Of a stretch of 64,000 bases of DNA, positions 8,361-54,657 are shown piece by piece. A model generated the notes under the pieces. The model ran no database searches, had not been told where the DNA came from, and was given only the letters and a program-made list of their open reading frames with translations. Made by a program: the position numbers and the translations under genes. Each line of letters starts with the position of its first letter. The first letter of the stretch is position 1. The stretch is from Verrucomicrobiales bacterium. Its GTDB lineage: Bacteria; Verrucomicrobiota; Verrucomicrobiia; Verrucomicrobiales; V1-33. The DNA is taken from contig JAQGPJ010000026.1 of NCBI GenBank assembly GCA_028293125.1, positions 1-64,000 on the forward strand, given 5' to 3'.

Positions 8361-9431
8361 TCAGGCTTCGAACCGGCAGCGCAGGAGGCGGCCGTAGTCG
8401 CGCCATTTGCCGTTTTCGCGGTTGGGCTGGCCTTGGGCTCCGGCGAGCCAGATGGTGCCTTCGGTGCCGGTGAAAAGGGCTTTGGTGACCCGGCATTTGG
8501 TGTCCAAGGAGCAGGTCAGGCCGCCTTGCACCGCGTCGAAAACCGCGGCGTTCCATGTGCCCTGCGCCTGCCGCCCGGCCATGACAAAGTGTGCGCCGCC
8601 CGGAGCAAAGGCCACGGACTCCATAAGACCGGATCCTTGGTCGCTGTCCTTGATTTTATCCATCTGTTTGGCGGGCGAGGCCTTCCAGTCCCAGCGCTGC
8701 CAGGTCATCTTCCCGTTGCCGGCCATGGGGTCCACCATAGGGCCCATGCCGCAGGCGACCAGCGTCCCACCGTCCGGTGAAAAAACGAGGTCGTAAATGC
8801 CCCCGCAGTAGTGGTGGCTCTTGGTGGTGCCCCAGCTGGTGAAGTCCGGGCTGGTGAAATCAGCCACGGGATCCTGTCCCGGCGTGTCCAGATTCCAGAC
8901 CCGCATGCCGCCCATCATATTGCCGGCGGCCACGTGGCGGCTGTCCGGGGAGAAGGCCACGGAGAGCACGGGCGGGAGGTGGTGATAGTCCCGGAGCACC
9001 TCGCCGGAGGCGGTGTCAAAGACGCGGACGCACGGCTCGGGGGAGGGCAGCGGCTCGTATTTCAGACCGCCCGCGAGATACTGGCCGGAGACGCTGGCGA
9101 TGTATCGGCCATCCGGAGAAAGCGCCATTTTCCAGGACCAGAAGGAGTGCGCCTTCACCCGCCGCCAGCACTTCCGGGTGGCAGTATCGTGCCAGAGGAT
9201 CATGCCGTCGTAGCCGGAGGTGATCAGCGTTTTGCCGTCCGGCAGCAGCACGCAGCCGGAGGCGAAACTGCCGTGGCGGCCCTCGAACTCCTCCGTTTTG
9301 CCGCTCTCCGCGTCCACCTCCAGCACTTGGCCATCCAGACAGGCGGCGTAAAGTTTCCCTCCATCCGCCGTGGCCGTCAGGCCGTGGATGGCGGTGGGCA
9401 CTTTGTACTCCTTTTGCTTCTCCAGTTTCAT
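8361..9431 (-). CDS. WD40-repeat beta-propeller protein
   Basis: A 356-residue protein of repeated WD40-like blades: HGLTATADGGKLYAACLDGQ, LLPDGKTLITSGYDGMILWH, MALSPDGRYIASVSGQYL, VAFSPDSRHVAAGNMMGGMR with VWN, LVFSPDGGTLVACGMG and VAFAPGGAHFVMAGRQA. The repeating xxxSPDGxxxxxG pattern suggests six or seven blades. No signal peptide is evident (it begins MKLEKQKEYKVPTAIHG), so it may be cytoplasmic or exported by an unseen route. It starts 9 bp after the DUF1501 gene and ends the PSD1-DUF1501-WD40 operon. A scaffold role with those two proteins is inferred from this recurrent gene order. Confidence 0.88.
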   Translation of the reverse strand: MKLEKQKEYKVPTAIHGLTATADGGKLYAACLDGQVLEVDAESGKTEEFEGRHGSFASGCVLLPDGKTLITSGYDGMILWHDTATRKCWRRVKAHSFWSWKMALSPDGRYIASVSGQYLAGGLKYEPLPSPEPCVRVFDTASGEVLRDYHHLPPVLSVAFSPDSRHVAAGNMMGGMRVWNLDTPGQDPVADFTSPDFTSWGTTKSHHYCGGIYDLVFSPDGGTLVACGMGPMVDPMAGNGKMTWQRWDWKASPAKQMDKIKDSDQGSGLMESVAFAPGGAHFVMAGRQAQGTWNAAVFDAVQGGLTCSLDTKCRVTKALFTGTEGTIWLAGAQGQPNRENGKWRDYGRLLRCRFEA

Positions 9432-9440
9432 GGGGGGATG

Positions 9441-10754
9441 TCAGGCAAGAATTTCGCTGATGGCCGGCGCACGGTCCTCCACGCGGTGGAAGGTGGGCAT
9501 GCCCGGCAGGTCGTATTCCGCATAGGGATCCAGTCCCAGCGCGGTGAAGATGGTGGCAAAAAGATTCTGCTCGCTGTGCGGCTTGCTGACCACATCCACG
9601 CCGTCCTCGTCGGTCTCCCCGACCACCACCCCGCGCTTCAGCCCGCCGCCGGCCATCATCAGGCTCCAGGCATTCGGATAATGATCGCGGCCCCGCGCGG
9701 CGTTCATCCAGGGGGTGCGTCCAAATTCCCCCATGGCCACCACCAGAGTGTTGTCCAGCATGCCGCGCTCCTCCAAGTCGGTGATCAGCTGATGCACGAT
9801 GCGGTCCATCTCCGGCACCAGCATCTGATGGATCTCATGCTGGAACACGTGGTTGTCCCACGACATGCCGTTGGCCACCATTACAAAAGGACAGCCATTC
9901 TCCACGAGATGGCGCGCCTGCAGGGTGTTCAGTCCGAACGATCCCGGTCCGTAGCGCAGGCGGTCGCCCACCGGCAGCTTCTCCAGATCAAAAAGATCGG
10001 CGCAGGCCATCAGACCGCGCACGCGCTCGAAAGCGGCGTTCTGACTGCGGGCGGCGGTGCTTTTGCGGTCGTTTTCGTATTTTTTCGCGAAGAACTTCCG
10101 CAGCCCTTCCCGCTCCTCGCGGTCCGCGGGCGTCAGGCCGTCATTGCCCGCCGCCAGCTGGGTGTAGTCGCCGCCCAAGCGCACAGGGCCGTATTCCGCG
10201 CCCAGCCAGCCGGCCCAGTTGCCGGCTTTGAAGGATTGGAACTCATTGCCGCCGGGGATGGGGTCGAGCAGGATGAAGTTCGGCAGCCGGGTGTCCACCT
10301 GTCCCAGGGCGTGGCCAACCACGGATCCCAGTGTGGGCCGGGTGAAGCCGGCGCGCTGCGGGTTCCCCTGCTGCAGCAGCGTGATCGCCAGGAAATGCTC
10401 CGGCTGCGTCGTCTTCATGGACCGCACCACACAAAGCTTGTCGGCGATGGAGGCGCATTTCGGCATCAGCGAGGAGAAATGCACGCCGGGAATTTTGGTG
10501 GGAATGCTGCCGAAGGGACCGCTGGAGGGGCGGCCCGGCTTGGGATCCCAAGTCTCAAACTGGCTGGGAGCCCCGCACAGCCAGAGCATGATGCAGCGCT
10601 TCTGCTGCTTTTTCATCTGCTCCGCGAAGGCCGGGCTGCTAAACAGGCCGGCCCAGCTGGTGACCAGCGACGCCATGCCCGCGGTGCCCATCCCCTGAAG
10701 GAACCGGCGGCGGTGAATCGTGTGCTCGTTGGGAGTGCAGTCTCCGGGTTTCAT
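9441..10754 (-). CDS. Tat-exported DUF1501 protein
   Basis: A 437-residue protein with a twin-arginine signal (HRRRFLQGMGTAGMASLVTS ending at SPAFA), then the DUF1501 (sulfatase/alkaline-phosphatase-like) fold: RCIMLWLCGAPSQFETWDPK, VRSMKTTQPEHFLA, NHVFQHEIHQMLVPEMDRIV, LVVAMGEFGRTPWMN and GRDHYPNAWSLMMAGGGLKR. Conserved His, Asp and Glu residues could form a metal site, but the reaction of this family is not established. It lies 97 bp downstream of the PSD1/DUF1549/DUF1553 gene and 9 bp upstream of the WD40 gene. The pairing with PSD1 is characteristic of Planctomycetota and Verrucomicrobiota. Confidence 0.92.
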   Translation of the reverse strand: MKPGDCTPNEHTIHRRRFLQGMGTAGMASLVTSWAGLFSSPAFAEQMKKQQKRCIMLWLCGAPSQFETWDPKPGRPSSGPFGSIPTKIPGVHFSSLMPKCASIADKLCVVRSMKTTQPEHFLAITLLQQGNPQRAGFTRPTLGSVVGHALGQVDTRLPNFILLDPIPGGNEFQSFKAGNWAGWLGAEYGPVRLGGDYTQLAAGNDGLTPADREEREGLRKFFAKKYENDRKSTAARSQNAAFERVRGLMACADLFDLEKLPVGDRLRYGPGSFGLNTLQARHLVENGCPFVMVANGMSWDNHVFQHEIHQMLVPEMDRIVHQLITDLEERGMLDNTLVVAMGEFGRTPWMNAARGRDHYPNAWSLMMAGGGLKRGVVVGETDEDGVDVVSKPHSEQNLFATIFTALGLDPYAEYDLPGMPTFHRVEDRAPAISEILA

Positions 10755-35077: not shown

Positions 35078-38000
35078 ATGCAATGGCTTGCTGAGATCTG
35101 TGTGCGCCGTCCGGTGCTCGCCAGTGTGATCGTGCTGGTGTTCGTGGTGGTGGGAACGCTGGGCTACACCCGGCTGCCCCTCGACCGCTTTCCCAAGGTG
35201 GACTTCCCCACCGTGGCCGTGACCACCCGCCTCGACGGTGCGACGCCGAAGGAGATCGAAACCCAGATCACGGACAAAATCGAGGAAGCCGTGAACACCG
35301 TCAGCGGCATTGACGAGCTGCGCTCCACCTCCAGCGAGGGCATCTCCCAGGTGCTGATCACCTTCCTGCTGGAGAAGAACGTGGATGTGGCCTCGCAGGA
35401 GGTCCGTGACCGGGTGAACCGTATTCTTTCCGAACTGCCGGATGACGCCGATCCGCCCATCATTGAAAAGCTGGATCCGGACGCCTCGCCAATTCTGAAT
35501 ATCGCCCTGACCGCGGACCGTCCGGCCCGCGAGATCACGGAGTATGCGGACAAGGTGCTGCGCCGGCAGCTGGAGAGCGTGCCCGGCGTCGGCCAGGTGA
35601 CGCTGCTGGGCGGGCGGAAGCGGCAGATCAATGTGTGGCTGGATCCTGTGAAGCTGCGCTCCTTCGGCCTCACCGCCATGGATGTCCGCCAGGCGCTGCG
35701 TTCCCAGAATGTGCAGATTCCCGCCGGCACCGTCAAAAACGCCGCCAGCCAGGCGGGCCTGCGCGTGCTGGGCAAGGCCGCCAGTGTGGAGGATCTGGGC
35801 CGGTTGGTGGTGCGGCAGAAGGACGGCGGGCTGGTGCGCTTGAACGATGTGGCCCGGGTGGACGACGGCGAGGAGGAACCACAGACCTCCGCCCGCCGCG
35901 ACGGCGTGCCCACAGTGGTGCTTTCCCTGCGCAAGCAGTCCGGCGGCAACACGGTGGCGGTCGTCGATGCCATCCATGAGCGTCTGAAGGAGAACGCCCG
36001 GACATTGCCGCCCGGCTATGCGGTGAATGTGGTGCGCGACAATTCATTGGTCATCCGCACCAGCACCCACGCGGTGCAGGAGCACCTGGTGCTCGGGGCT
36101 TTGCTGGCCTCGGCGATCGTGCTGATTTTCCTGGGCAACTCCCGGGCCACCCTCATCGCCGCCCTGTCCATTCCCACCTCCATCATCGCGGCGTTCGGGG
36201 TCATGTGGGCCCAGGATGTGACGCTGAACCAGATCAGCCTCATCGCCCTTGCCCTGGCGGTGGGGATCGTGATCGATGACGCCATCATCGTGCTGGAGAA
36301 CATCGTGCACCACATGGAGTCCCGGGGCGAGGGACCTCATGAGGCGGCGGTCAGCGGCACCCGGGAGATCGGTCTGGCGGTCATGGCCACCACCCTGTCG
36401 CTGCTGGCGGTCTTTGTGCCGGTGGCCTTTCTGAGCGGCATCGTGGGCATGTTCCTGAAAAGCTTCGGCCTGACCATGGCCTTCGCCATCGGGGTGTCCC
36501 TGCTCGTCAGCTTCACGCTGGTGCCGGCGCTGTCCGCACGATTGCTCAAGCGGACGCATCAGGGCCGGGTGGAGCGCACGCTGGAGCGCTTCGTGCAGAT
36601 TTTCTACAAGCCCATCGAGCGGCTTTACATGGTCATGCTGCGCTTTTCCCTGCGGCACCGCTGGGTGGTGGTGCTGGCCTGCATCGGCGCGCTGGCCACA
36701 GTGCCGGTGCTGATGAAAATCGTCCAGAAAAGCTTCATGCCGCCCACCGAGGAGGCGGAGTTTGTGGTGAACTTGCGGGCTCCTGAAGGCAGCACGCTGG
36801 CGGCCACCGATCTGCTGGCGGAGCGGGTGGCGCGGGATATCCGGGGCCTGCCGGGCGTGGAGTCCACCCTGCTGACCATCGGCGACAATGACCAGCGCAC
36901 CCCGAACCTCGCGGGCATCTTTGTCCGCCTGACGGATCCGGAGACCCGCCAGGCCACGCAGCAGGACATCATGGACCAGGTGCGGCAGCGGATTGTGCCC
37001 CGCTATCCGGAGGAATGGCGCATCACGGTGCTGGCGGTGCCCCCGTTCAACACCGGCATGTCCAGCGCCAACATCCAGTTCTTCATTGCCGGACCGGATC
37101 TCGACAAACTCACCACCGCTACGGATGCCGTCATGAAGGAGGCGAAGCACATCCCCGGCATCCGCGACCTCGATTCCACCCTCATCAGCGGCAAACCGGA
37201 GATCACCGCCACCGTGGACCGCGCCAAGGCCGGCCAGTTGGGGGTCAATATCGCCGATCTTTCCACCACTCTGCGCCTGCTGGTCGGCGGGCTGGATGTC
37301 TCCACCTACGACGAGGGCGGGGAGCAGTATGACATCCATCTGCGCGCCGAGGAGAACTATCGTAACAGCCGCGAGGCCATGAGCCTGCTTTCCGTGCCCG
37401 CCCTCGGCGGAGCGCCGGTGGCCATGGAGAACGTAATCCATCTGGAGAACAGCGACGGCCCCTCGCAGATCAACCGGCTCAACCGGCAGCGTCAGGTCAC
37501 CCTCAGCGCCAACAACGCGCCCAATGTCGGTGAATCCACCATCGTGGACGCCCTGGACGCCATTGTGAAAAAGCAGAACCTGCCCGCGCAGTATCAAAGC
37601 GGGGTCGCGGGCCGTTCGAAGGAGATGGCCCGCACCCTCAAGGCCTTCATGACGGCCTTCATGATGGCCTTCATCTTCATGTATCTCATCCTGGCGGCGC
37701 AGTTCGAGAGCTGGCTGCACCCCTTCACCATTCTGATCTCGCTGCCGCTCACCCTGCCCTTCGCCATTCTGTCGCTGATCATCTTCAACCAGTCGCTGAA
37801 TTTGTTCTCCATGCTCGGAGTGCTGGTGCTTTTTGGCATGGTGAAGAAGAACGGCATTCTCCAAATCGACCACTCCATCCAGCTGCGGGAGCGCGGCATG
37901 GAGCGCGAGGCCGCCGTGCTGCAGGCGAACCGCGATCGTCTGCGCCCCATCCTGATGACCACCCTGGCGTTCGTCGCCGGCATGGTGCCCATGATGCTGG

Positions 38001-38266
38001 CCAGAGGGGTGGGCGCCTCCTTCAACAACGCCACCGCCGGGGTGATCCTCGGCGGCCAGACCCTGTCCCTGCTGCTCACCCTGCTGGCCACGCCGGTGTT
38101 TTACACCCTCTTTGACGATGTGATCCAGTGGCGGCAGCGCCGGAAGGAAAGGCGGCGGGCGAAAAGGGCCGCCAAGGGGGATTTTGATGACGAATCCGGA
38201 CCGGAGCATGGAGCACCCACGCCGGATACGGAAGCGCCAGCCGCCGCCCGGCCGGCCCACACCTGA
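35078..38266 (+). CDS. RND-family inner-membrane efflux pump (AcrB/HAE1 type)
   Basis: A 1062-residue transporter of normal family length. The first membrane helix is CVRRPVLASVIVLVFVVVGT. Large periplasmic loops follow it and the second-half first helix (HRWVVVLACIGALATVPVLM). The TM4 proton-relay acids appear in ALAVGIVIDDAIIVLENIVH, and TM11 has GVLVLFGMVKKNGILQIDHS. The motif RLDGATPKEIETQITDKIEE begins the porter domain. It exports lipophilic compounds driven by protons as a trimer. The C-terminus ends in a charged tail (RRKERRRAKRAAKGDFDDE). It is the middle gene of the adaptor-pump-channel operon. Confidence 0.96.
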   Translation: MQWLAEICVRRPVLASVIVLVFVVVGTLGYTRLPLDRFPKVDFPTVAVTTRLDGATPKEIETQITDKIEEAVNTVSGIDELRSTSSEGISQVLITFLLEKNVDVASQEVRDRVNRILSELPDDADPPIIEKLDPDASPILNIALTADRPAREITEYADKVLRRQLESVPGVGQVTLLGGRKRQINVWLDPVKLRSFGLTAMDVRQALRSQNVQIPAGTVKNAASQAGLRVLGKAASVEDLGRLVVRQKDGGLVRLNDVARVDDGEEEPQTSARRDGVPTVVLSLRKQSGGNTVAVVDAIHERLKENARTLPPGYAVNVVRDNSLVIRTSTHAVQEHLVLGALLASAIVLIFLGNSRATLIAALSIPTSIIAAFGVMWAQDVTLNQISLIALALAVGIVIDDAIIVLENIVHHMESRGEGPHEAAVSGTREIGLAVMATTLSLLAVFVPVAFLSGIVGMFLKSFGLTMAFAIGVSLLVSFTLVPALSARLLKRTHQGRVERTLERFVQIFYKPIERLYMVMLRFSLRHRWVVVLACIGALATVPVLMKIVQKSFMPPTEEAEFVVNLRAPEGSTLAATDLLAERVARDIRGLPGVESTLLTIGDNDQRTPNLAGIFVRLTDPETRQATQQDIMDQVRQRIVPRYPEEWRITVLAVPPFNTGMSSANIQFFIAGPDLDKLTTATDAVMKEAKHIPGIRDLDSTLISGKPEITATVDRAKAGQLGVNIADLSTTLRLLVGGLDVSTYDEGGEQYDIHLRAEENYRNSREAMSLLSVPALGGAPVAMENVIHLENSDGPSQINRLNRQRQVTLSANNAPNVGESTIVDALDAIVKKQNLPAQYQSGVAGRSKEMARTLKAFMTAFMMAFIFMYLILAAQFESWLHPFTILISLPLTLPFAILSLIIFNQSLNLFSMLGVLVLFGMVKKNGILQIDHSIQLRERGMEREAAVLQANRDRLRPILMTTLAFVAGMVPMMLARGVGASFNNATAGVILGGQTLSLLLTLLATPVFYTLFDDVIQWRQRRKERRRAKRAAKGDFDDESGPEHGAPTPDTEAPAAARPAHT

Positions 38267-38277
38267 GAAATTTTGCC

Positions 38278-39696
38278 ATGATGCCGGCTTTCCGCCTCCA
38301 TTTTCCTGCCCCCGCCGCTGCGGCCATCGCTTTGGCCCTGCTGTCCGGCTGCGCCATGGGCCCCGATTATCAAAAGCCCGACACCGCCGCCGTCACTCCT
38401 GCCGCTTGGCGCTGGCAGCCCGCTGTGCCCCGCGACACCGCGCCGCGCGGGGAATGGTGGACGGTGTTCCGCGATGCGGACCTGAATACTCTGGAAAGCC
38501 GCGCCTTGGCGGGCAGCCAGACCCTCAAAGCCGGCGTGGCCCGCGTGCTGCAGGCCCGCGCCAACGCCCGTGCGGAGGCCACGGGGTTTTTCCCGGACAT
38601 CCGGCTCAACAGCAGCGCCAAACGGGAGCAGACCTCCGGCAACCTGCCGTCCCCGGTGCCGGTCTCCATTCCGGCTTCCCGGATCAACACCTTCGATGCC
38701 GGTTTTGATCTCAGTTATGAGATCGATTTCTGGGGCAAGGTGCGCCGCTCCTGGGAGTCTGCCCGCGCCAGCGCCGATGCCTCGGAGGCGGATTTCCACC
38801 ACATGCTGCTGACCCTGACGGGCGATGTGGCGATGAACTATTTTTCCCTCCGTGCCGCCGACGCCGAACTCGCCGCCCTGCGCCGGACCATCGGCATCCG
38901 GGAAAACGCCTTCCGGTTCACCCAGATGAAATTCGACGCCGGCACGGTCGGCCGGATCGACCTGGCCCGCAGCCGCACCGAGCTGGACACGGCCCGCGCC
39001 GAGCTGGCGGACGTGCAGCGGCAGCGCCGCGAAACCGCCGACACCCTAGCCCTGCTCTGCGGGGAGCCCGCCAGCAATTTCGATCTGCCGGAGCGCCCGC
39101 TTAATCTGACCCCTCCCGCCATTCCCGCCGGTATCCCCGCCCATGTGCTGGAGCGTCGTCCCGATGTGGCCGCCGCCGAGCGGGATGTGGCCGCCAAAAA
39201 CGCCCAGATCGGCGTGGCCCAGGCGGCTTATTTCCCGGCCATCAGCCTGACCGGCAGCAGCGGGCGGCTCAGCAATGAGACCGGCACTCTGTTCACCGCG
39301 GACAGCAAGGTGTGGACCATCGGCCCCAGCCTCAGCCTGCCCATCACCGGCTACGCCCTCATCGGGGCCAATGTGCGCCGGGTGAAGGCGGCGCGCGAGG
39401 AGTCCATCGCCAACTACCGCCAGGCGGTGCTGACCGCCGTGAAGGATGTGGAGACCTCCCTGACGCAGATCCGCTACCGCGCGGAGCAGGCCACCGCCCA
39501 AAGCGAGGCCCTCAAGTCCGCCACCACCGCCGCCGACCTCATCCGGACCCAGTACGAAAGCGGCACCATCGGCCAGCTCGATCTCCTGGAATCCGAGCGC
39601 ACCCGCCTGCAGGTCGAGCGCCAGTCCGCGCAGCTCAGCGCCCAGCGCCTGATCGCCACCGTGCGCCTCATCAAGGCTCTGGGCGGTCAGTGGTGA
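38278..39696 (+). CDS. Outer-membrane efflux channel lipoprotein (NodT/OprM type)
   Basis: A 472-residue TolC-superfamily protein. The lipoprotein signal is AIALALLSGCAMGPDYQKPD with lipidated Cys at about residue 25, and the NodT start WWTVFRDADLNTLESRAL follows. Two OEP repeats with long helical coiled coils follow: LKAGVARVLQARANARAEAT, DLSYEIDFWGKVRRSWESAR, then AERDVAAKNAQIGVAQAAYF and DLIRTQYESGTIGQLDLLES. It forms the trimeric outer-membrane duct of the efflux pump. It starts 11 bp after the pump gene, so all three are one operon. Confidence 0.95.
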   Translation: MMPAFRLHFPAPAAAAIALALLSGCAMGPDYQKPDTAAVTPAAWRWQPAVPRDTAPRGEWWTVFRDADLNTLESRALAGSQTLKAGVARVLQARANARAEATGFFPDIRLNSSAKREQTSGNLPSPVPVSIPASRINTFDAGFDLSYEIDFWGKVRRSWESARASADASEADFHHMLLTLTGDVAMNYFSLRAADAELAALRRTIGIRENAFRFTQMKFDAGTVGRIDLARSRTELDTARAELADVQRQRRETADTLALLCGEPASNFDLPERPLNLTPPAIPAGIPAHVLERRPDVAAAERDVAAKNAQIGVAQAAYFPAISLTGSSGRLSNETGTLFTADSKVWTIGPSLSLPITGYALIGANVRRVKAAREESIANYRQAVLTAVKDVETSLTQIRYRAEQATAQSEALKSATTAADLIRTQYESGTIGQLDLLESERTRLQVERQSAQLSAQRLIATVRLIKALGGQW

Positions 39697-44116: not shown

Positions 44117-44146
44117 CTGACGGATGCGCTTGCTGCTATATATGAT
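44117..44146 (+). promoter_or_regulatory. Possible sigma-70 promoter of the SBP-VWA operon
   Basis: CTGACG (44117-44122) and TATGAT (44141-44146) are spaced by 18 bp and match four and five of six consensus bases. Transcription would start near 44153, giving a very short leader before ATG 44164, which argues against the TTG start at 44146. Confidence 0.35.
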
Positions 44147-44163: not shown

Positions 44164-45861
44164 ATGACATCCGTGTCCAGCCCCGGGGATCTGTTCAAAT
44201 CCGCACGCCGCCTTGTGCTGGCCGGCATGATTCTTCTGGCTGTCTCGTGCGGCAGGCAAAACCAGCCGGCACCGGGCGCCCCCGCGGCTGCTGACCCGAA
44301 TGCGGTGACGGTGAACTTTTTATACAGCTCGGAGAAGGAGGAATGGCTGAAGGCTGTCACCGCTGAATTCAATCAATCCCGCACCGGGCTGCCCAATGGT
44401 AAAACCATCGCCGTGGAGGCTATCCCCATGGGCTCGGGGGATATGATCACCGAAGTTCTGGCCGGCAACCGTCAGCCGCATCTGATCAGCCCCGCCTCGC
44501 AGCTTTTTCTGAAGGATGGCAACGACAAAAGCCTCACCGCCACCGGGCAGCCCCTGACCGGACCGGCGGTGAACCTGGTGCTGTCCCCTGTGGTGGTCGC
44601 TATGTGGAAACCCATGGCGGAGGCGCTGGGCTGGCCGGGCAAGCCCGTCGGCTGGGCGGAAATTCACGCTCTGGCCACAGACGGGCGCGGCTGGGCTGCC
44701 CGGGGATTTCCCCAGTGGGGGAAATTCCGTTTTGGCCACACGCACCCGGATTACAGCAACAGCGGGATGCTGGCCGTCCTGGCGGAGATTTACGCCGGAG
44801 CCGGAAAGCAGCGCGGGCTGACCGCTGCGGACCTGGAAAACCCTGCGGTTGGCGGCTACCTGCGCACCATCGAATCCGCCGTGGTCCATTACGGCGAAAG
44901 CACGGGTTTTTTCGGGCAAAAGCTTTTCAGCGGAGGTGCCTCCTATCTCAGCGCCGCCGTGCTGTATGAAAACATGGTCGTGGGGAGCACCGGTAAAACG
45001 GACCTCCCTCTGGTCGCTGTTTATCCAAGGGAGGGCACCTTCTGGAGTGACCACCCCGCCGCCATCGTGAACCGCCCCTGGGTCAGTGCGGACCAGCGGG
45101 CCGCCGCTCAGGGGTATCTGGATTATCTGATGGGGAAATCCTGTCAGGAACGGGCGCTGGCGCTGGGCTTCCGTCCGGGGGATCCCTCGGTTCCGCTCGC
45201 CAGCCCCATTGATGCCGCCCACGGCGTCGATCCCGCCCAGCCGCGGACCCTTCTGGAGATCCCTCCGTCCGGGGTGACGGCGGCGGCGCGCGCGCTGTGG
45301 GCCGTCAACAAAAAGCGGTCCGACATCACTCTGGTGATCGACATCTCCGGCTCCATGCAGGAGGAGGAAAAAATGAAATACGCGCGTGAGGGGGCCGCCA
45401 AATTCATCAACGCCCTCGGGAATGAGGACACCCTGAGCGTGGTGGCCTTCAACGGCGGAACCTCCATGCTCATGGAACGCCAGCCTCTCGGTGCCTCGCG
45501 TGAGGTTCTGCTGCGCCGGATTGCCGGGTTGGTGCCCCTGGGGGGAACCGCGCTCTACGACGCCACCGGCTCCGCCCATGAGGACCTGATGCGCACGGCG
45601 GCTCCGGACCGTATCCCGGCCATCGTGGTGCTCAGCGATGGCGCGGACTCGGCCAGCAAAATTTTCACCCTGGACCGGCTGCTGGCCAGCCTCAATCCCG
45701 GGGCCGAGGGTGGAGGCATCCGCATCTTCACCATCGCCTACGGGTCGGACGCCAAAAAGGATGTGCTGGAGCGCATCTCCACCGCCACGCAGGGGCGGGT
45801 TTACACCGGCAGTCCCAAGGACATCGACCGCGTCTTCCGCGATATCGCCACCTTTTTCTAA
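44164..45861 (+). CDS. Lipoprotein with solute-binding domain fused to von Willebrand A domain
   Basis: A 565-residue protein. The lipoprotein signal is LAGMILLAVSCGRQNQP, Cys at about residue 28. A type-2 periplasmic solute-binding domain (about 45-350) reads VTVNFLYSSEKEEWLKAVTA, MGSGDMITEVLAGNRQPHLI, FGHTHPDYSNSGMLAVLAEI. A VWA domain (about 380-565) has the MIDAS motif ITLVIDISGSMQEEEKMKYA (D392), Thr in GGTALYDATGSAHEDLM and Asp in PAIVVLSDGADSASKIF. The MIDAS is complete, so it should bind divalent metal and a protein ligand. No ABC permease or ATPase is nearby. It is first in a three-gene set, 42 bp before a second solute-binding gene. Confidence 0.88.
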   Translation: MTSVSSPGDLFKSARRLVLAGMILLAVSCGRQNQPAPGAPAAADPNAVTVNFLYSSEKEEWLKAVTAEFNQSRTGLPNGKTIAVEAIPMGSGDMITEVLAGNRQPHLISPASQLFLKDGNDKSLTATGQPLTGPAVNLVLSPVVVAMWKPMAEALGWPGKPVGWAEIHALATDGRGWAARGFPQWGKFRFGHTHPDYSNSGMLAVLAEIYAGAGKQRGLTAADLENPAVGGYLRTIESAVVHYGESTGFFGQKLFSGGASYLSAAVLYENMVVGSTGKTDLPLVAVYPREGTFWSDHPAAIVNRPWVSADQRAAAQGYLDYLMGKSCQERALALGFRPGDPSVPLASPIDAAHGVDPAQPRTLLEIPPSGVTAAARALWAVNKKRSDITLVIDISGSMQEEEKMKYAREGAAKFINALGNEDTLSVVAFNGGTSMLMERQPLGASREVLLRRIAGLVPLGGTALYDATGSAHEDLMRTAAPDRIPAIVVLSDGADSASKIFTLDRLLASLNPGAEGGGIRIFTIAYGSDAKKDVLERISTATQGRVYTGSPKDIDRVFRDIATFF

Positions 45862-45903
45862 CGCAAAACCGTGCCGGCTGCCCGCCGTCCCCCTTTCCTT
45901 CCC

Positions 45904-47106
45904 ATGCCTCAGTCCTCCTCCACGCCCGGCCTCACCCCTTTGGGAAAAGTCTTTGTGCTGCTGATCATCGCCGCCCTGTGCGCGGGCGGCTACATGCTTT
46001 TCAACAAACAGAAACCGTCCTCCGCCGGGCCCTCCGGTCAGCCGGAGGCGGACGGCTCCCGGCCTCCTGGCGGGAAGTCCGCTACCATCGTTTTTGCCTT
46101 TGGATCGGAAAAGGAGCGCTGGGTGAAATGGGCGGTGACGGCATTTGCCAAAACCGCCGGCGGCGGCGGGGTCACAGTGGAGCTGAAGCCGATCGGCTCC
46201 CTTGAGGCCGCCCGCAAACTTGCCGCCGAGGGCAAGGGCACCCACCTGTGGAGCCCCGCCAGCGCCACGGTGCGGGACATCCTGGCGGCGGACTGGCAGC
46301 AGCAGCACGGGGCCAAGGCCATTCTCCGGGAGGAAAGCCTGGCCCTGTCGCCCATGGTCTTCATCTGCTGGCAGGAGCGTTATACCGCCTTTGCCGCGAA
46401 ATACCCCACCATGAATTTTGACACCGTGGCCTCCGCCCTGAACGAGTCCACCGGCTGGGGCGCCATCGCCGGCAAGCCGGAGTGGGGGTTTTTCAAATTC
46501 GGATGCCCGGACCCCATGGCCAGCAACGGAGGCCTCACCACCATCGCGCTGATGGGCCACCATTTCCTCAAAAAGACGCAGGTGCTCACCACCGCCGATG
46601 TGATGAATGCCGGTTTTCAGGAATGGTTCGCCAAAACCGCCGCCGGCTTCACGGGCATGTCCGGCAGCACCGGCACCATGATGAGGGAGATGGTCCTTAA
46701 AGGACCCTCGGCCTACGACGCGGTTTTCGCCTACGAGAATCTGGCCATCGACTATCTGAAAGGGGCCGAGGGCCGCTGGGGCCGCCTGCAGGTGGTTTAT
46801 CCCACGCTGAACATGTGGAGCGAGCACCCGTGCTGCCTGCTCAACGCGGAGGGCATGACCACCGCGCAGAGGGACGCCGCCAATGCCTTCATGGACTTCC
46901 TGCTCAGCCCTCCCGCGCAGCGCCAGGCGGTGGAGCACGGGTTCCGTCCCGCGAATCCCGATGTGCCGATGATCGGTCCCGACAGTTTATGGACCAAATA
47001 CGCGGACCACGGCCTGCAGGTGCAGGTGCCGCAGGTCTGCGCCCCGCCCCAGGCGGAGGCGGTGCTCAATCTTCTCACCGGCTGGCAGCGGCTGAAGAAC
47101 CGCTGA
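45904..47106 (+). CDS. Membrane-anchored solute-binding-like protein
   Basis: A 400-residue protein. A single N-terminal membrane segment (LGKVFVLLIIAALCAGGYML, about residues 14-33) is followed by a linker and a type-2 solute-binding fold: KSATIVFAFGSEKERWVKWA, LKPIGSLEAARKLAAEGKGT, LALSPMVFICWQERY, FKFGCPDPMASNGGLTTIAL and AFAYENLAIDYLKG-like sequence. It is homologous to the N-terminal domain of the preceding VWA protein (shared SEKExW, FxFGxxxPxxSNxGxxxxxL and YENxx motifs) but lacks VWA. Lack of a cleavable signal implies tethering to the inner membrane. A duplicate that lost, or a parent that never had, the VWA half. Confidence 0.82.
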   Translation: MPQSSSTPGLTPLGKVFVLLIIAALCAGGYMLFNKQKPSSAGPSGQPEADGSRPPGGKSATIVFAFGSEKERWVKWAVTAFAKTAGGGGVTVELKPIGSLEAARKLAAEGKGTHLWSPASATVRDILAADWQQQHGAKAILREESLALSPMVFICWQERYTAFAAKYPTMNFDTVASALNESTGWGAIAGKPEWGFFKFGCPDPMASNGGLTTIALMGHHFLKKTQVLTTADVMNAGFQEWFAKTAAGFTGMSGSTGTMMREMVLKGPSAYDAVFAYENLAIDYLKGAEGRWGRLQVVYPTLNMWSEHPCCLLNAEGMTTAQRDAANAFMDFLLSPPAQRQAVEHGFRPANPDVPMIGPDSLWTKYADHGLQVQVPQVCAPPQAEAVLNLLTGWQRLKNR

Positions 47107-47139
47107 CCGGCCCCTCTTTGCCCCGCACGCAATCCGTCC

Positions 47140-47943
47140 ATGTGGTGGTCCGCCCTCAAAGCAGCCTTCCGGCACCGGGAACGCATGCCCCTGCTGGGGA
47201 ATGTGCCGGTCAATATACTGGCCGTGGCCACTTTCGCCGCGCTGGGGTTCGGACATCAGGTTTTCTGGTGGGCCGGTGCCGGGCTGGAGGCCGCCTGGCT
47301 TTTTCTCTGTGTCACCAGCCCCCGCTACCGCCGCGCCGCGCTGCTGCCGGCGCGGCAGGCCACCGAAGCCCGCGCCGCGGAACAGCAGCGGATGGTTTTC
47401 CTGCAACTGGATCCCCGGCTGCGCCAGCGCCATGAGACCCTGCGTGGCCGCATCCGCCGGATTGCCGGACTTTGGCAGGAGAGCGGCAGTGAGGCCGCCG
47501 GCACCGGCCTGGACCAGTTGGAGTGGCTGCATTTGAAATTCCTGTTGGCCAAACAGCACTTGGAGGCCGCTGAAGCGGAGGCTCCCCGTGACTCCATCGG
47601 CACCCGGTTGGCCGGTCTGCGGTCCCAGCTTGCCCAGCCCGATCTCGCTCCAGCCACGCGCGCCTCGCACGAGGCCACCGTGGCCATTGTCGAGCAGCGC
47701 CTCGCGGCCAGCGCCGAGCGAGCCCGCCGCCTGGAGGGAATCGAGGCCTCGCTGCACCGCATTGAGCAGCAGGTGGAACTGACACTGGAGAAGGCCCTGC
47801 TGAGCACCGACGGCACCGGCCAAACCCACAGCTTGGATCTGGCCAGCCACACCCTGGCCGTCAGCAGCGAGTTGTTTGGCTCCACGCTCCCGGCAGTCAG
47901 TGATCTGGATGACTGGTATTCGATGTCGCGGATGGCGGAGTGA
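47140..47943 (+). CDS. Membrane and coiled-coil protein of the SBP-VWA operon
   Basis: A 267-residue protein. The N-terminal region (about 22-60) has two adjacent hydrophobic segments (VPVNILAVATFAALGFGHQV and FWWAGAGLEAAWLFLCVTS). The rest is strongly helical and charged with heptad-like patterns (ARAAEQQRMVFLQLDPRLRQ, HLKFLLAKQHLEAAEAEA, VAIVEQRLAASAERARRLEG, IEASLHRIEQQVELTLEKAL). It is probably a hairpin in the inner membrane with a cytoplasmic coiled coil, placed to pass a signal from the two periplasmic binding proteins inward. It lies 33 bp after the preceding gene. No known family was recognised. Confidence 0.7.
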   Translation: MWWSALKAAFRHRERMPLLGNVPVNILAVATFAALGFGHQVFWWAGAGLEAAWLFLCVTSPRYRRAALLPARQATEARAAEQQRMVFLQLDPRLRQRHETLRGRIRRIAGLWQESGSEAAGTGLDQLEWLHLKFLLAKQHLEAAEAEAPRDSIGTRLAGLRSQLAQPDLAPATRASHEATVAIVEQRLAASAERARRLEGIEASLHRIEQQVELTLEKALLSTDGTGQTHSLDLASHTLAVSSELFGSTLPAVSDLDDWYSMSRMAE

Positions 47944-48092: not shown

Positions 48093-51000
48093 TCAGCGGG
48101 CGGGCGGAGCCACTTCGCGCACGGTGGCGCCATGCTCGGCGCTGAGCACGAGGATGGAGAAGCGCTTGGTCCGGTCGAGGTCGTTGGTGCTGAGGCTGGT
48201 GTAGTCGAACTTGCCGCGCAGATCGGTGTAGCCGTCCTTGTAGAAGGTGGGGGTGCCGTTGATGTCAGCAAAGACCTTCACATACACTTTGGGCAGCGGA
48301 CGCTGGTCGCCGGCATGACGCACCTGCAGGATGCCGTAGTTCTCGCTGATCTGGAGATCCAGCTGATTGGCGTAGGAGGCCGCCGCTTTGGTCTGGCCGG
48401 CGGCGGTGATCTCCACCAGCACATTGGAGTTCTGGTATTCCTGCGGCAGGGGGAAGCTGCGGACGGTCTGAGTGCCGTCCAGGGCCACTTTCTCGGTTTT
48501 GTTGGGCCGGATGCTCCGGAAGCGCGAGGTGTCCTGGCTGACAAACGGATTGGCGCTGAAGAGGAACTCCAGATCCATGGGGTAGTAGTTCACCGTGACC
48601 TCGGAGACGTTCCGGTAATCCAGGGTGACCGCCCGGTTCTCCACTTTCAGGGCGAACTGTGGCTGGGAGGCGGCGGCGCGGTCCTGGGCGGCATCGCGGT
48701 CGCCGGCCTTGGCATCGGCGGGTTTTTTGCCGTCGATCTCATCCAGCTGCGCGGCCATTTCCTGGAACTTCGACTGCCAGCGGTCCGGCAGCGGGCTGCC
48801 TCCGGTGCGGGCGCTGACCACCGTGCGGGCGGCGGCGGTGTCCCCGCTGCTGAAGGCCAGCCAGCCCTCCAGATAGTCATACTGAAGGCGCTCATGCACT
48901 TTGGAGGCGTCCACCTTGGCGAACCATGCCTGAGCCTCCTCCAACCGGTCCTGCAGCAGCAGGGCGGCGGTGACCCCCAGGCAGTCCTCGGCGGTCAGAG
49001 CCGGGCGGAAGCTCAGCAGGTGCATCCAGGCGGCGTACTGCGCGCGGAACCGGTCATTCAGGATCACGCGTTCGCTGCCCAGACGGTGGGCACGGGCATT
49101 GACCAGCGGGCTGTACTCCAGCCACTGGAAGGTTTTCCGCTCCACGGGGTCAATGTTCAGCAGCGGCGAGACCAAGGGCTCGGCGGGCACACCGTCACCC
49201 AAGGCCAGGAACTGGCGGATGCCGGGCTCGTCGCGGTGCAGGATGCTGTAGCTGAGCACGGTGTTCTGCGGGAAGCGGCGGCTTTCGAGCAGGGCGCGGA
49301 CTTTGCCGTAAAAGCCGGCATCCTTCAACCTCCAGGCGATGCGGTCCAGATTGGTCTGATAGAGGCTGTGGGATTCCAGCCAGGCCAGCACCTCTTCAGG
49401 AGTGCCCTGCTGGCTGAGATAGTCCCACGAGTTTTTGTCCACCGTGCTCAGGGTGTCCACCACCTTGAAGCTGACCGGCGCAGCTGACGCGGCGACTTTG
49501 CCGTCGCGGCTGACGTGGACCGGATAGTGCGCAAAGGTCCCCGCCTTCGGGAAGTAGAACTGGAAGTCCAGCGTCTGGGTCTGGAAACCGCCCAGCGCCA
49601 GCGGCGCGGACTGGGTGACCTTCGTGCGGTTCACCGGCAGCGCCCCGACCGGAATCTGGAACAGCACCTCCAGCCGGCGGGTGGCGGAGCCGGGATTGGT
49701 GACCACGATCTGGCAGCCGTAAACCGTGCCCGACAGGAATTCCCCGTTCACGAACTTGTCGGATTTTTCCCCGTTCTCCTCAAGGTAGCGGTCGCCGTCG
49801 CGGTAGAAGTTCTGGCTGACGAGCAGCGGCGGTCCCTCCTTGTCGGCTTCGGCGGGTTTGATCTCCTGATGCACGAGGATGGTGCGGCTGGCGGGGGTCA
49901 GCGTCAGCGTCTTTTCCTTGAGTTCGGCCTTCACAGGAGAGGTCCCAGCTTCGAAAGGGAGATCCATCAGCCCCAAGGCCAGCATCATTTCGCTGAAATT
50001 CCCCGCGGCCTCACTCAGGTGGGTGGAAAGAAATCCGGATTTGCCATCCCACTTCGCATAGTCCTGCCAGAAGCGGTTGGGTCTGATGAGGTCCGCGTTT
50101 TGGGCGGCGATGAGCAGCTGCCAGTAGTTGTTCTCCGCCCACTCCTTGGTGAGTTCCGTTTGCCGGTAAAGCTGGGCACTCTTCGCAGCGGCCTTGCGCA
50201 GTCCGAATCCTCCGCCGGCAGCCAGTCCGCGGCGTCCCATGGATTCAGGAACTTCAATCTTCCCGGATGCGAACGCCGCTTCGTGCTCTTCGACCATGGA
50301 CTCCAAGGCCAATGTGGCCGGAGCTGGAGCGGCGGCAGCGGGGGGCGGCAGTGCCCCAGGAGCGTCCGCAGGCGCATTGTAGCCGAACATCTGTTTTGCG
50401 CCCTCTCCACGCCCCCTGAAGAACATGTCCGCCCCAAGCTGGCTCACCACGCCGGACCGCGTATCATCCCCGAAATACCGGGCATTCAGCGCCGTGTCGA
50501 ACAGGAACAGCTCCCGGGCGGGATCGCGGGGGATGGAGTTCAGATAATCCGTCAGGTCCCGGGCCGCGGCGGCGCGTCCGGTCTCATCCAGACGGCGGGC
50601 CAGCAGCAGCTTTTCCGCAGTGTTCAGAGTGGCATACCGGGGCGGGAACAGCCAGCGGCCAAGGTCGCCGTCCAGCAGATACTCATCCATGAAGGTCCGG
50701 TCTCGCTTGTTGGCCAGATAGGGCTGGATCACTTTTTTGAAGAAGTCCGGATCCTTGAGGGACAGGAAAAAGCTGAGTTCGTGGCTGGCGTATTTGGAAT
50801 AAAGCTCCCGCTTTTTGGCCTCATCCTGGGCCGGCCAGGTCCGCACAAATGCGAATTCCGCCAGAGTGGCGTTTTTGCTGAGGCTGGACAGCAGATCCCA
50901 GGCGTCGCCCAGATGACTGTAGGTCACATATTCCGCGGAGAGAGCGTCCTTCAGGGCGAAGGGCACATCCTTCTCCAGAATACTGACCGAATTCTGCCGG

Positions 51001-54000
51001 GCAAAATGGCCGGCGGGATCCAACCCGTTGGCCAGCCGTTGATCCTGGGTCCGGAGCGGTTTTTCCGGCACCGTGAAGTCGCGCATGGCGGCGGAATCCC
51101 CGGACACGGCCAGCACCCGGATGATCTGGCCATGGCCCAGCGCGTTGGCTGCGATGTGGATATCGCCCTTGGCGTCCGGCTTCAGATTGAAGGCTGTGGC
51201 CCCTGACTCCGCCAGGAAGGAAAGATCGGGGGACTGGTCCGGAGCAATCAAAGCGTCGGCAGCCGCCGAACGGGCGGCAGTGGCTTCCGCTTTGTCCTTG
51301 GCTAGGGTTTCGCGCCTCATGGCCTCCTTTTCCGCCTGCATGGCCTGAGGAACTTCACCCGCCTCCGCATCCCGCTTTTCTGTGCTGGTGTCCGCAATGG
51401 CCCAGGGATTCAGAAGCAGGCCGGGGCGCGGCAGCAGGTTGCCGGCGAAGACGCGGTGGGTGCGCCGCTCCAATACATAACGGTATTCCTCACCGATGGT
51501 GCGGGCGGACTGGTAGAGGCTGGGCCGCCAGATATTGGGCGTCAATTCAGGCTCCGTCAGGGAATCATTTCCCAGCTCGTCAAAGGCGTCGAACGCCGGC
51601 AGGAACCGGCTCACCATCACATGCACCCGTGTGTCCTTGGTGGCATGGGCGATGTGGAACGTCAGCGCCTCCACCGGCTTGTCCGTGCCCGGCAGGGAAA
51701 ACGTGCCGGAGGTCATGCCGGTGACGGCCAGTGGATCGGGCGTGGACAGTTCCAGGCTAACCGCGTTGTTCAGCAGGTGGCCATCCACCACCTTGCCGGC
51801 GGCGACGCGCACGGTCACCGGCTCCTCCCGGCCTGTCAGAAAAGCCTCGTAGGTCCCCGCCGCCAGTCCTTTGACCGCCAGCGCCCCGTCCTCCAGGGCG
51901 ATGCCCTCGGTGATGGTGCGGACAAAGGCGCCGCCCCGGACCTCGATCAGGGAAAGGCCGGACTTCACCTGGCTGGCGCGCTTGCCCGGCGCCCCGTCCT
52001 CCTCTTCCGCCAGCAGCCAGGGCAGCCGCAGCACCTCGCCGGCGGCGAGATGGATTTCATCATCCACCGACGACTGGCTGCGCGGCAGCATAAAAGGCCG
52101 CGTGATGCCGCTGGTGGCGGTGATGGCGGAGATGTCCTCCAGCCTGCCCAACTGCGCCTTTCCACTCTCATCGGTGCGCAGATTGGCGGGCAGTTGAATG
52201 GTGAAATCAGGATTAACCAGACTCACGCCGATCTGCCGGTTGCCCAGCGGCTCGCCATTGCGCCCCAGCAGGGAAAGCGACCAGCCGCCGGTGCTGCGGG
52301 AAAGATGCAGATCCCCCGTTTGATTGGACAGGGTGAAGCCATTGATGCGGACCTCCGTGCCGGAGGAGACCGTGACCGGCTGGCCGGTGATCAGGCTTTT
52401 CACCTCGCCGCTCAGGGTGAGGCTCAGCGTGGAGACACGGTCCGGGACATTGAAGGGCACCAAGGTCTCCTTGTCGGGCGCAAGGTCCTTCAGCGGCACC
52501 ACGGTGACCGAGGGAATGCCGTCGAGCGACACCGCGCGGACCGTCAGCTTGGGGTTCTCCAAAGCGGAAAGCTCCATGAGGCGGCCGTTGCACAGCACGG
52601 CGGGGCGCAGCACCGCCGTGGCCTTCCGGCCCGGCAGCAGGGATTCGCGGGGCACATGCAGGCCGGCGTTCAGGCTGTAGTTCTCACCCTCCATGGAAAT
52701 GCTTTCCAAGGTGGTGAAGCCGGTGCCGTCCCCGATGACCACATTTTGCGGGCCGGGGGTAGTGGTGAACGGCATCATAATGTGCCCCGAGGCATCGGCG
52801 GCGAACCGCTGACTGCCCAGCAGCGCGTAGGCTCCGGGCACGGGCGCGGTGTTCTCATCCAGCACCGTCAGGCGGGTGCCCGCCGGGGTGGAGGCGGGCA
52901 GGACGCGCAGCCCGCCCTTGCGGACCAAGGCGCGGCTGCTTTTGCCGCCTCCGATGAATTCAATGATCCACACCCCGCGCCGGCCATTGAGCTCCGGGAA
53001 TTTGAAGGTGCGGCGCACACGCTGCAGCGGCGGATCGGTGTAGTCGGCGGAGAACTCGCGGTTGGCCACCAGGCCGTCGAGGTCGAGGTCCGTGTTCACC
53101 TGTTTCCCTGTGCTGCGGTGGACGTTCTCGGTGTTGATCTCAAAAACCTTGACCAGCAGGTGGGGCACGTTTTTGAGGTGCAGATCCAGCGCCACCTCGT
53201 CCTGCGGCAGCCAGTCCTCCCGGCTGGAGGGGTCGAACTCCAAATCCGTGCGTGTGCGCAGCTGCTGATAGGCGGCGGGAGGCAGCAGGGCGACATACTG
53301 GTCCGCGGCCTCCGGTTTGGCGGTCAGCTGCGCCTCCGCCAGAATGGTCTTCAGCCATTCCTCCTCCACCCACGGCTTGAAGGGAGTGGTGTCCGGATTT
53401 TTGGCCAGCAGGAGCAGCAGGCAGCGCCGCACCACATCGTCATCCTGACGGATGGGACCACGTCCGGTCAGAGCAGTGAAATCACTGCCGAGATCCACCG
53501 GATAGCGGAACACATCCGCGCGCTCCCGGAACTGAGGGTTCAGGTAAATCACCATGCGCGGCAGCTTCAGATAGGCTGTCAGCAGGGCGGGGTCGCACTG
53601 GTTGCGTTTGAGATCGAACTCCAGCCGCTGATAAAGCACGCTGGCCTTCAGGGAATTGAAGGTGGGTGCCAAGGTGTCCGCGAACGCCTGCTGGCGCTCC
53701 AGCCACGCCAGGCGCACGGCGGGGTCGCGCTCCGGATCCGCCCCGTCCGGCGGCACCAGGCGCTGCATCCACGTCTCCACGAACGCCTGGTTGTGCAGCA
53801 GGGCGGGCTCCTGTTTCTGCAGGGAGGCCAGCTGGTCCAGCAGCAGATTCCGGTGAATGGGGAATTCCCCGAAGCCGCGCGACTCCTTCGTGCGCAGGTC
53901 CGTCAGGATCAGCTGCGTCAGGCCCGGCAGATCGGGACGGGTGACCCGGCTGAGCAGGGCCCGCCGCGCGTCCGGATTCAAAGCGATACCGCGCCACAGC

Positions 54001-54494
54001 ACGGAGCGAAGGCCGGAGTCTGTCAGCGTCTTCAGCGTGGGATCCTGACGCACCGCCTCGGCGAAAAAGGCATCCCAGGTGATTAGGGCCGGATCCAGCG
54101 CTGTGGGAATCTCCGGCGGGGTGCCGGCGGTTTCGCGGACGTGGTCAAAATTGAGCCCCCGGCTCTCCTTCAGCCAGGCCAGCGTGCCGGCGGGATCGGT
54201 GGCATATTCCAGATAATGCTGTCGGGTGGCCAGCAGCTCGCGCTGTCCGTCGCCGGCGGGATAGCGTTCCTGCCACTCCTTCAGCAGGCGCGCCGCCTCG
54301 GGAATCTGTCCGGCATTCTGCGCGTGAAGCGCTGAATAATAATAAAACTCCGGAGTGCCGGGAATCAGTTCCTTCAGCGCCGCCGGACGGTCCCCCGCCA
54401 AGGCAAAGGTTTCCTCAAAGCCGACCGGCGGGGCGGCGTGAAGCAGAGAGGGAAAAAACATAACCAGGAGAGGAGTCAGTCGGAGGGTATTCAT
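48093..54494 (-). CDS. Bacterial alpha-2-macroglobulin-like protein, very long
   Basis: A 2133-residue exported protein (signal MNTLRLTPLLVMFFPSLLHA). A helical N-terminal region (to about 400) precedes macroglobulin-type beta domains: LVANREFSADYTDPPLQRVR, GRRGVWIIEFIGGGKSSRAL, LTVLDENTAPVPGAYALLGS, FTTLESISMEGENYSLNAGL, GRKATAVLRPAVLCNGRLME. A2M-like central segments and a TPR-like helical region (about 1700-1950) follow. No CxEQ thioester motif is visible; the few cysteines are in other contexts. A2M proteins trap proteases at the cell surface, and thioester-less forms work differently. No pbpC-like partner gene is adjacent. The start at 54494 opens the signal peptide; an in-frame extension upstream is not credible. 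Confidence 0.75.
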   Translation of the reverse strand: MNTLRLTPLLVMFFPSLLHAAPPVGFEETFALAGDRPAALKELIPGTPEFYYYSALHAQNAGQIPEAARLLKEWQERYPAGDGQRELLATRQHYLEYATDPAGTLAWLKESRGLNFDHVRETAGTPPEIPTALDPALITWDAFFAEAVRQDPTLKTLTDSGLRSVLWRGIALNPDARRALLSRVTRPDLPGLTQLILTDLRTKESRGFGEFPIHRNLLLDQLASLQKQEPALLHNQAFVETWMQRLVPPDGADPERDPAVRLAWLERQQAFADTLAPTFNSLKASVLYQRLEFDLKRNQCDPALLTAYLKLPRMVIYLNPQFRERADVFRYPVDLGSDFTALTGRGPIRQDDDVVRRCLLLLLAKNPDTTPFKPWVEEEWLKTILAEAQLTAKPEAADQYVALLPPAAYQQLRTRTDLEFDPSSREDWLPQDEVALDLHLKNVPHLLVKVFEINTENVHRSTGKQVNTDLDLDGLVANREFSADYTDPPLQRVRRTFKFPELNGRRGVWIIEFIGGGKSSRALVRKGGLRVLPASTPAGTRLTVLDENTAPVPGAYALLGSQRFAADASGHIMMPFTTTPGPQNVVIGDGTGFTTLESISMEGENYSLNAGLHVPRESLLPGRKATAVLRPAVLCNGRLMELSALENPKLTVRAVSLDGIPSVTVVPLKDLAPDKETLVPFNVPDRVSTLSLTLSGEVKSLITGQPVTVSSGTEVRINGFTLSNQTGDLHLSRSTGGWSLSLLGRNGEPLGNRQIGVSLVNPDFTIQLPANLRTDESGKAQLGRLEDISAITATSGITRPFMLPRSQSSVDDEIHLAAGEVLRLPWLLAEEEDGAPGKRASQVKSGLSLIEVRGGAFVRTITEGIALEDGALAVKGLAAGTYEAFLTGREEPVTVRVAAGKVVDGHLLNNAVSLELSTPDPLAVTGMTSGTFSLPGTDKPVEALTFHIAHATKDTRVHVMVSRFLPAFDAFDELGNDSLTEPELTPNIWRPSLYQSARTIGEEYRYVLERRTHRVFAGNLLPRPGLLLNPWAIADTSTEKRDAEAGEVPQAMQAEKEAMRRETLAKDKAEATAARSAAADALIAPDQSPDLSFLAESGATAFNLKPDAKGDIHIAANALGHGQIIRVLAVSGDSAAMRDFTVPEKPLRTQDQRLANGLDPAGHFARQNSVSILEKDVPFALKDALSAEYVTYSHLGDAWDLLSSLSKNATLAEFAFVRTWPAQDEAKKRELYSKYASHELSFFLSLKDPDFFKKVIQPYLANKRDRTFMDEYLLDGDLGRWLFPPRYATLNTAEKLLLARRLDETGRAAAARDLTDYLNSIPRDPARELFLFDTALNARYFGDDTRSGVVSQLGADMFFRGRGEGAKQMFGYNAPADAPGALPPPAAAAPAPATLALESMVEEHEAAFASGKIEVPESMGRRGLAAGGGFGLRKAAAKSAQLYRQTELTKEWAENNYWQLLIAAQNADLIRPNRFWQDYAKWDGKSGFLSTHLSEAAGNFSEMMLALGLMDLPFEAGTSPVKAELKEKTLTLTPASRTILVHQEIKPAEADKEGPPLLVSQNFYRDGDRYLEENGEKSDKFVNGEFLSGTVYGCQIVVTNPGSATRRLEVLFQIPVGALPVNRTKVTQSAPLALGGFQTQTLDFQFYFPKAGTFAHYPVHVSRDGKVAASAAPVSFKVVDTLSTVDKNSWDYLSQQGTPEEVLAWLESHSLYQTNLDRIAWRLKDAGFYGKVRALLESRRFPQNTVLSYSILHRDEPGIRQFLALGDGVPAEPLVSPLLNIDPVERKTFQWLEYSPLVNARAHRLGSERVILNDRFRAQYAAWMHLLSFRPALTAEDCLGVTAALLLQDRLEEAQAWFAKVDASKVHERLQYDYLEGWLAFSSGDTAAARTVVSARTGGSPLPDRWQSKFQEMAAQLDEIDGKKPADAKAGDRDAAQDRAAASQPQFALKVENRAVTLDYRNVSEVTVNYYPMDLEFLFSANPFVSQDTSRFRSIRPNKTEKVALDGTQTVRSFPLPQEYQNSNVLVEITAAGQTKAAASYANQLDLQISENYGILQVRHAGDQRPLPKVYVKVFADINGTPTFYKDGYTDLRGKFDYTSLSTNDLDRTKRFSILVLSAEHGATVREVAPPAR

Positions 54495-54657
54495 AGCCTG
54501 CAGGAGAATGGTTTGCCCTGCCAGTCTAGAGCAGGGAAAGGCGGCGGGCCAGTTTTGTTGCGTAAAGCGTTTGTCAACGCGGGGGAGGGCCTGCCTGGCG
54601 GATTCCGGACCGCGGATGCCGTCTGGATTTTTGCGGCGGGCCATGACATGAAGGGGG

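Follow-up and report, generated by a model that had tools for sequence, protein, structure and literature searches.

A conserved three-gene unit of solute-binding and VWA proteins in a Verrucomicrobiales bacterium as the possible sensor front end of a PspA-AAA membrane-maintenance system

The DNA analyzed here, referred to as the window, comprises 64,000 nucleotides of contig JAQGPJ010000026.1 from a Verrucomicrobiales bacterium (assembly GCA_028293125.1). We studied a group of three genes within it that encode a lipoprotein in which a solute-binding protein (SBP) domain is fused to a VWA domain (SBP-VWA), a membrane-tethered SBP, and a protein with a membrane hairpin and a long helical domain (Table 1). 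The genes share a strand, are separated by gaps of 9 bp (genes 1 and 2) and 33 bp (genes 2 and 3) and form an operon-like trio. A preliminary description of the locus had proposed exactly this layout, and open reading frames (ORFs), strand and the SBP and VWA domains are in agreement with it. The same applies to its statement that the operon is devoid of transport components, as neither a permease nor an ATP-binding cassette (ABC) ATPase is encoded among the ORFs surrounding the trio.

Table 1. Position and assignment of the features of the trio locus (coordinates refer to the window).
Feature	Position	Strand	Length	Assignment	Basis
Gene 1	44164..45861	+	565 aa	Lipoprotein, SBP (residues ~47-340) plus VWA with complete MIDAS	Pfam, AlphaFold model, Foldseek
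Gene 2	45871..47106	+	411 aa	Membrane-tethered SBP	Pfam PF13531, pairwise identity to gene 1
Gene 3	47140..47943	+	267 aa	Two-helix membrane hairpin (residues ~24-59) plus long helical domain	
Candidate sigma70-like promoter	44117..44146	+		Upstream of gene 1; weak	Consensus scan only, 9/12 matches

Both halves of the gene 1 product are recognized by Pfam, the first as SBP_bac_11 (PF13531, E 1.5e-14) and the second as VWA (PF00092, E 4e-12), and the former family is also found in the gene 2 product (E 3e-14), the two SBP domains scoring 54.8 and 53.7 bits, respectively, against a Pfam cut-off of 25. As stated in the preliminary description, the VWA domain carries a complete metal-ion-dependent adhesion site (MIDAS; DxSxS, T, D) formed by D393, S395, S397, T462 and D492, residues that are retained in 78-80 of 80 homologues. 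The AlphaFold model of gene 1 is confident (pLDDT, predicted local distance difference test score, 89; pTM, predicted template modeling score, 0.85). In Foldseek searches, the SBP half proved closest to sulfate-binding and sugar-phosphate-binding proteins, e.g., AfuA and VcA0625, with the sulfate-binding protein 5um2 as best match, while bacterial VWA proteins constitute the nearest folds for the VWA half (best match 4fx5). The N-terminus contains a lipobox-like AVSC sequence, and since glycine is the residue at position +2 after the predicted lipid cysteine, the lipoprotein could be anchored in the outer membrane and from there span the distance to the tethered SBP.

The SBP domains of genes 1 and 2 are homologous (29% identity, E 3e-31), which bears out the earlier proposal that gene 2 encodes a tethered homologue. 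Its product features a single hydrophobic segment at about residues 18-46 and no obvious cleavage site; the gene starts with GTG, and an internal ATG at 45904 is a possible alternative. A pocket-like set of residues (GS, SPA, SN-G, YE) is kept in both SBPs. With sulfate- and hexose-phosphate-binding proteins as the closest folds of the modeled structure, an oxyanion or a phosphorylated compound is a plausible ligand. Genes for phosphate or phosphonate transport (Pst-like or Phn-like ABC ATPases, PstS) occur within about 6 kb of SBP-VWA at loci L045, L063, L075 and L143, the latter on a Thiodictyon plasmid with pstS 5 kb upstream; these neighbors are a possible hint to the ligand and too few to call.

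The product of gene 3 is without credible match in Pfam or NCBIfam, Foldseek returned nothing at E ≤ 0.001, and a sequence search of the PDB with the gene 3 profile yielded coiled-coil noise only. Two hydrophobic segments are connected by a loop of about six residues. Averaged over 43 family members, lysine and arginine residues number 1.7 before the hairpin, 0.26 in the loop and 3.3 behind it, and on account of these K/R-rich flanks and the K/R-poor loop both termini and the helical domain are predicted to lie in the cytoplasm, in line with the inward relay through a helical arm that had been suggested before. The AlphaFold model of gene 3 has a pLDDT of 86. Separate hidden Markov model (HMM) seeds from Chloroflexota and from Myxococcota converged on a common set of 51 loci, among them gene 3 of the window and the Verrucomicrobiota set. 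Two paralogues reside elsewhere in the same genome (L132:6519-7316, minus strand, and L133:6946-7788, plus strand), neither adjoined by SBP genes and that at L133 located directly 3' of an ABC exporter gene.

A scan of genome contigs, which favors close relatives of the query, retrieved 80 SBP-VWA loci, 54 of which have sufficient flanking sequence (at least 3 kb on the 5' side of the SBP-VWA gene and at least 4.5 kb on its 3' side). A second SBP is encoded at 49 of these 54 loci and a second SBP together with a gene 3 homologue at 37. The latter number is a lower bound because the gene 3 HMM misses divergent hairpins, e.g., those encoded third at L037 and L146, and it places the association of the three genes far beyond chance, such that the objection that they might rarely occur together does not hold. 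The order SBP-VWA, SBP, gene 3 prevails in Verrucomicrobiota and Acidobacteriota, SBP, SBP-VWA, gene 3 in Chloroflexota and SBP-VWA, gene 3, SBP in Myxococcota. That the genes stay together despite this rearrangement argues for a joint function, and the trio is a real and ancient unit across phyla. Among 57 relatives, the system is present, besides this genome, only in G050 and, in a divergent form, in G032. On the Thiodictyon plasmid (L143), the gene after SBP-VWA and SBP encodes a protein of 224 aa whose start resembles a signal peptide and which does not match the gene 3 HMM.

In ten loci the operon includes a gene for a PspA/IM30 protein of about 250 aa, and in eight of these an AAA ATPase is present as well. 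Two representatives of the former belong to PspA_IM30 (PF04012) with scores above the Pfam gathering score (E 7e-9 and 5e-11); two representatives of the latter, proteins of about 550-570 aa, match PF00004 with E about 1e-22 to 1e-24, the match being confined to the C-terminal half. Six loci are ordered SBP-VWA, SBP, PspA, gene 3, AAA, while at L062 and L107 SBP-VWA is directly followed by PspA and AAA and a second SBP and gene 3 were not detected.

The same proteins are also found in trans. In the genome from which the window stems, the sole PF04012 match lies on another contig (C92, locus L120) and belongs to the same PspA subfamily as the operonic proteins; this PspA gene (L120, 7410-8162) is followed on the same strand, after about 460 bp, by an AAA gene (8621-10306; PF00004, E 7e-25). 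When the AAA subfamily is delimited at E ≤ 1e-140, a line set after the scores were known and falling into a gap between 1e-147 and 1e-80, it is represented in 12 of the 13 Verrucomicrobiota genomes that carry SBP-VWA (five in cis, seven in trans) vs. six of 277 other sampled Verrucomicrobiota, this genome excluded, only some of which were checked for SBP-VWA. The AAA gene in trans adjoins PspA in this genome and at L150, L154 and L156, and does not do so at L148, L149, L151, L153 and L155. The genome of L063 combines an SBP-VWA/SBP locus without gene 3 with a separate operon of PspA, a gene 3 homologue and AAA (L152). In four Myxococcota with the trio (the genomes of L095, L100, L102 and L105, i.e., G352, G361, G353 and G354), the AAA and PspA genes share contig and strand at a distance of about 11-15 kb and may belong to a single long gene cluster.

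Gene 3 itself provides a further connection. A profile search of the phylum revealed relatives in operons without SBP-VWA, and in other genomes the profile matches proteins adjoining AAA (E 2e-6 to 4e-14). At L140, the gene order is VWA lipoprotein, PspA-like protein, tethered SBP fused to OmpA, permease, ABC ATPase, gene 3 relative and AAA, and L138 resembles it without the transporter genes. The PspA-like protein of L140 stays below Pfam detection at 0.01 and was identified by a local PspA HMM (23 bits) and its position in the operon. Ravi et al. (2024; PMC11237479) describe PspA, "Snf7 homologs with a TM segment" (TM, transmembrane), AAA, an ABC ATPase, a permease and a PBPB-OmpA protein as encoded together (example OGG56892.1). 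L140 fits this arrangement as given there, and gene 3 would therefore be a relative of that TM-segment protein.

The anatomy and conservation of the trio, the operonic PspA and AAA genes of some relatives, the co-occurrence in trans and the homology between gene 3 and a protein encoded beside PspA and AAA in other operons are direct observations. The reading that in our view accounts best for them, with a probability of roughly 0.55, is that the trio serves a PspA-AAA (bacterial ESCRT-III-like) membrane-maintenance system as its front end, providing the periplasmic sensor and the transmembrane part. For such a system we infer physical contacts, a direction of signaling, a ligand and a membrane-repair output as follows. 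In the periplasm, the lipoprotein and the tethered SBP would recognize a small molecule as ligand, or one another via the metal site of the VWA domain, or both, and the hairpin protein would carry the state of these heads across the membrane. Its helical arm, on the cytoplasmic face of the inner membrane, might recruit or regulate a PspA coat that the AAA ATPase would recycle. The charge pattern supports this proposal since it puts the arm of gene 3 where PspA acts. The preliminary description, which is partly supported by these data, had taken the binding proteins for likely sensors or scaffolds; it missed the link to PspA and AAA, which lies outside the window.

Several observations weigh against this interpretation. 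The operon of the window contains neither PspA nor AAA, and although the finding of PspA in 38 of the 40 genomes carrying SBP-VWA speaks in favor, it tells us little by itself because PspA is common in bacteria. The statistical support for co-occurrence of SBP-VWA and AAA (Fisher p 4e-16, and 5e-10 with the in-cis cases removed) overstates independence because the tested genomes are related. The six Verrucomicrobiota with AAA in the comparison set are without SBP-VWA at E ≤ 1e-15, so the dependence is one-way, SBP-VWA going with AAA and not the reverse, and the AAA protein thus also serves other systems; in the Chloroflexota genomes searched, PspA is present and such an AAA is absent. Comparison of the gene 3 and PspA profiles by hhalign gave zero similarity, and in VIA-align the Z scores of gene 3 with Vipp1 (7.3) and CdvB2 (6.8) are tied with those of BAR and coiled-coil folds (about 7). 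An ESCRT-III fold for gene 3 could not be confirmed, as sequence matches are lacking and the structural rows are tied helical folds.

These points lead to the alternative that SBP, SBP-VWA and hairpin form a complex for sensing or scaffolding in the periplasm that works on its own, with an output other than PspA; PspA and AAA would then have joined the operons of some lineages secondarily. It would explain why, among the loci with enough flank, PspA is encoded in cis in just 8 of 54 and AAA in 6 of 54, and why Chloroflexota have the trio without AAA. We nevertheless consider it unlikely, though deserving of attention, because AAA is found in trans in seven of the eight Verrucomicrobiota genomes that do not have it in cis, and because homologues of gene 3 adjoin AAA and PspA even in operons without SBP-VWA. 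A role in uptake, with permease and ATPase encoded elsewhere and the SBPs feeding an orphan ABC transporter, appears highly improbable. It is true that the pocket-like residues are kept in both SBPs, that the SBP of L140 is accompanied by genes for a permease and an ABC ATPase and that 6 of 83 loci have an ABC ATPase gene no more than 6 kb away, three being of the phosphate or phosphonate type by our own reading; yet these six are of differing subfamilies and 0.3-6 kb distant, as expected of background, the module has no conserved permease or ABC ATPase, and uptake systems do not usually pair a tethered SBP with one fused to VWA. A conserved ABC transporter beside the system was rejected in view of the diversity of these six ATPases.

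Resistance to toxic anions of the TelA/XpaC type, in which the SBPs would sense oxyanions and the hairpin would be an XpaC-like partner, we regard as improbable. This idea draws on the Variovorax plasmid locus L145 with the order SBP-like gene, TelA, SBP-VWA, TM-hairpin gene, the last of which matches the gene 3 HMM with E 7e-5 in a small search, on a weak match to the XpaC family PF10112 (Halogen_Hydrol; E 0.0077) in one of 43 gene 3 family members and on a sulfate-binding protein as the closest SBP fold. An XpaC/TelA pair, lmo1966-1967, has been reported in Listeria in relation to tellurite and nisin (PMC12791056). Against it, gene 3 itself matches neither TelA (PF05816) nor XpaC, and TelA was found neither in this genome nor in any of the 40 genomes searched that carry the system; TelA was therefore rejected both as gene 3 and as its partner. 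The remark on TelA in the preliminary description is partly right: it applies to the Variovorax plasmid and to none of these 40 genomes with a window-type system. Wadjet genes and a flotillin/OB-fold pair are located close by on that plasmid.

Nor was the trio found to be described already. The terms "Willebrand" and "VWA" do not occur in the main text of PMC11237479, and a literature search, which did not cover the supplements of that article, returned no paper on SBP-VWA with PspA or on the function of SBP-VWA.

In the window, the trio is preceded by a gene for a 1281-aa lectin/immunoglobulin-like protein that ends at 43882. Further upstream follow the nearest transport-like genes, a resistance-nodulation-division efflux pump (ACR_tran) and then an outer-membrane factor (OEP; 35078-39696, plus strand). 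A 2183-aa gene downstream (48093-54644, minus strand) is convergent with the trio and has zero Pfam matches at E 0.001. The sigma70-like consensus scan gave two candidates in the region vs. 0.5 expected. The three trio proteins matched no PADLOC defense model at E 0.01; a weak IetA match of the AAA protein (E 4e-9) is taken as generic AAA similarity, and a classification as defense gene was rejected.

The question addressed by these findings is how coats of the PspA type (bacterial ESCRT-III) perceive problems of the envelope beyond a few model species. A bolder and less probable reading is that of a hitherto undescribed trans-envelope module in which a VWA-fused SBP lipoprotein and a tethered SBP paralogue would control an ESCRT-III/AAA machine from the outside, resulting in ligand-responsive repair. 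If the front-end reading holds, the PspA machine of Verrucomicrobiota, Acidobacteriota and relatives gains input domains of its own in the periplasm, whose ligand and metal sites are conserved, the ligand becomes directly screenable, and the widespread annotation "substrate-binding and VWA domain-containing protein", for which we found no assigned function, acquires a role.

The classical Psp systems, pspABC of E. coli and liaIH of B. subtilis, likewise rely on PspA as effector at the inner membrane, whereas in SBP-VWA operons no PspB, PspC or PspF was seen, the proposed sensor is a periplasmic SBP/VWA pair and AAA is added. VWA systems of the MoxR-BatA/B type share a MIDAS VWA protein encoded beside membrane proteins, but the trio operon is without a MoxR ATPase, its VWA domain is fused to an SBP and the similarity is that of VWA domains in general. 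TelA/XpaC operons resemble the trio insofar as SBP-VWA and a TM hairpin neighbor TelA on the Variovorax plasmid; they differ in their TelA and in an XpaC to which gene 3 has no recognized relation. The operons described in PMC11237479 are alike in encoding a gene 3 homologue, PspA and AAA with a periplasmic solute-binding protein. In that source, however, the SBP is OmpA-fused and accompanied by a transporter, whereas the trio has two SBP_bac_11 proteins, one of them VWA-fused, and no transporter, and its PspA-AAA pair is often encoded elsewhere. Operons of PspA, TM protein and AAA with other binding proteins were thus already described there in 2024, and what is added here is the partner link for the SBP-VWA trio.

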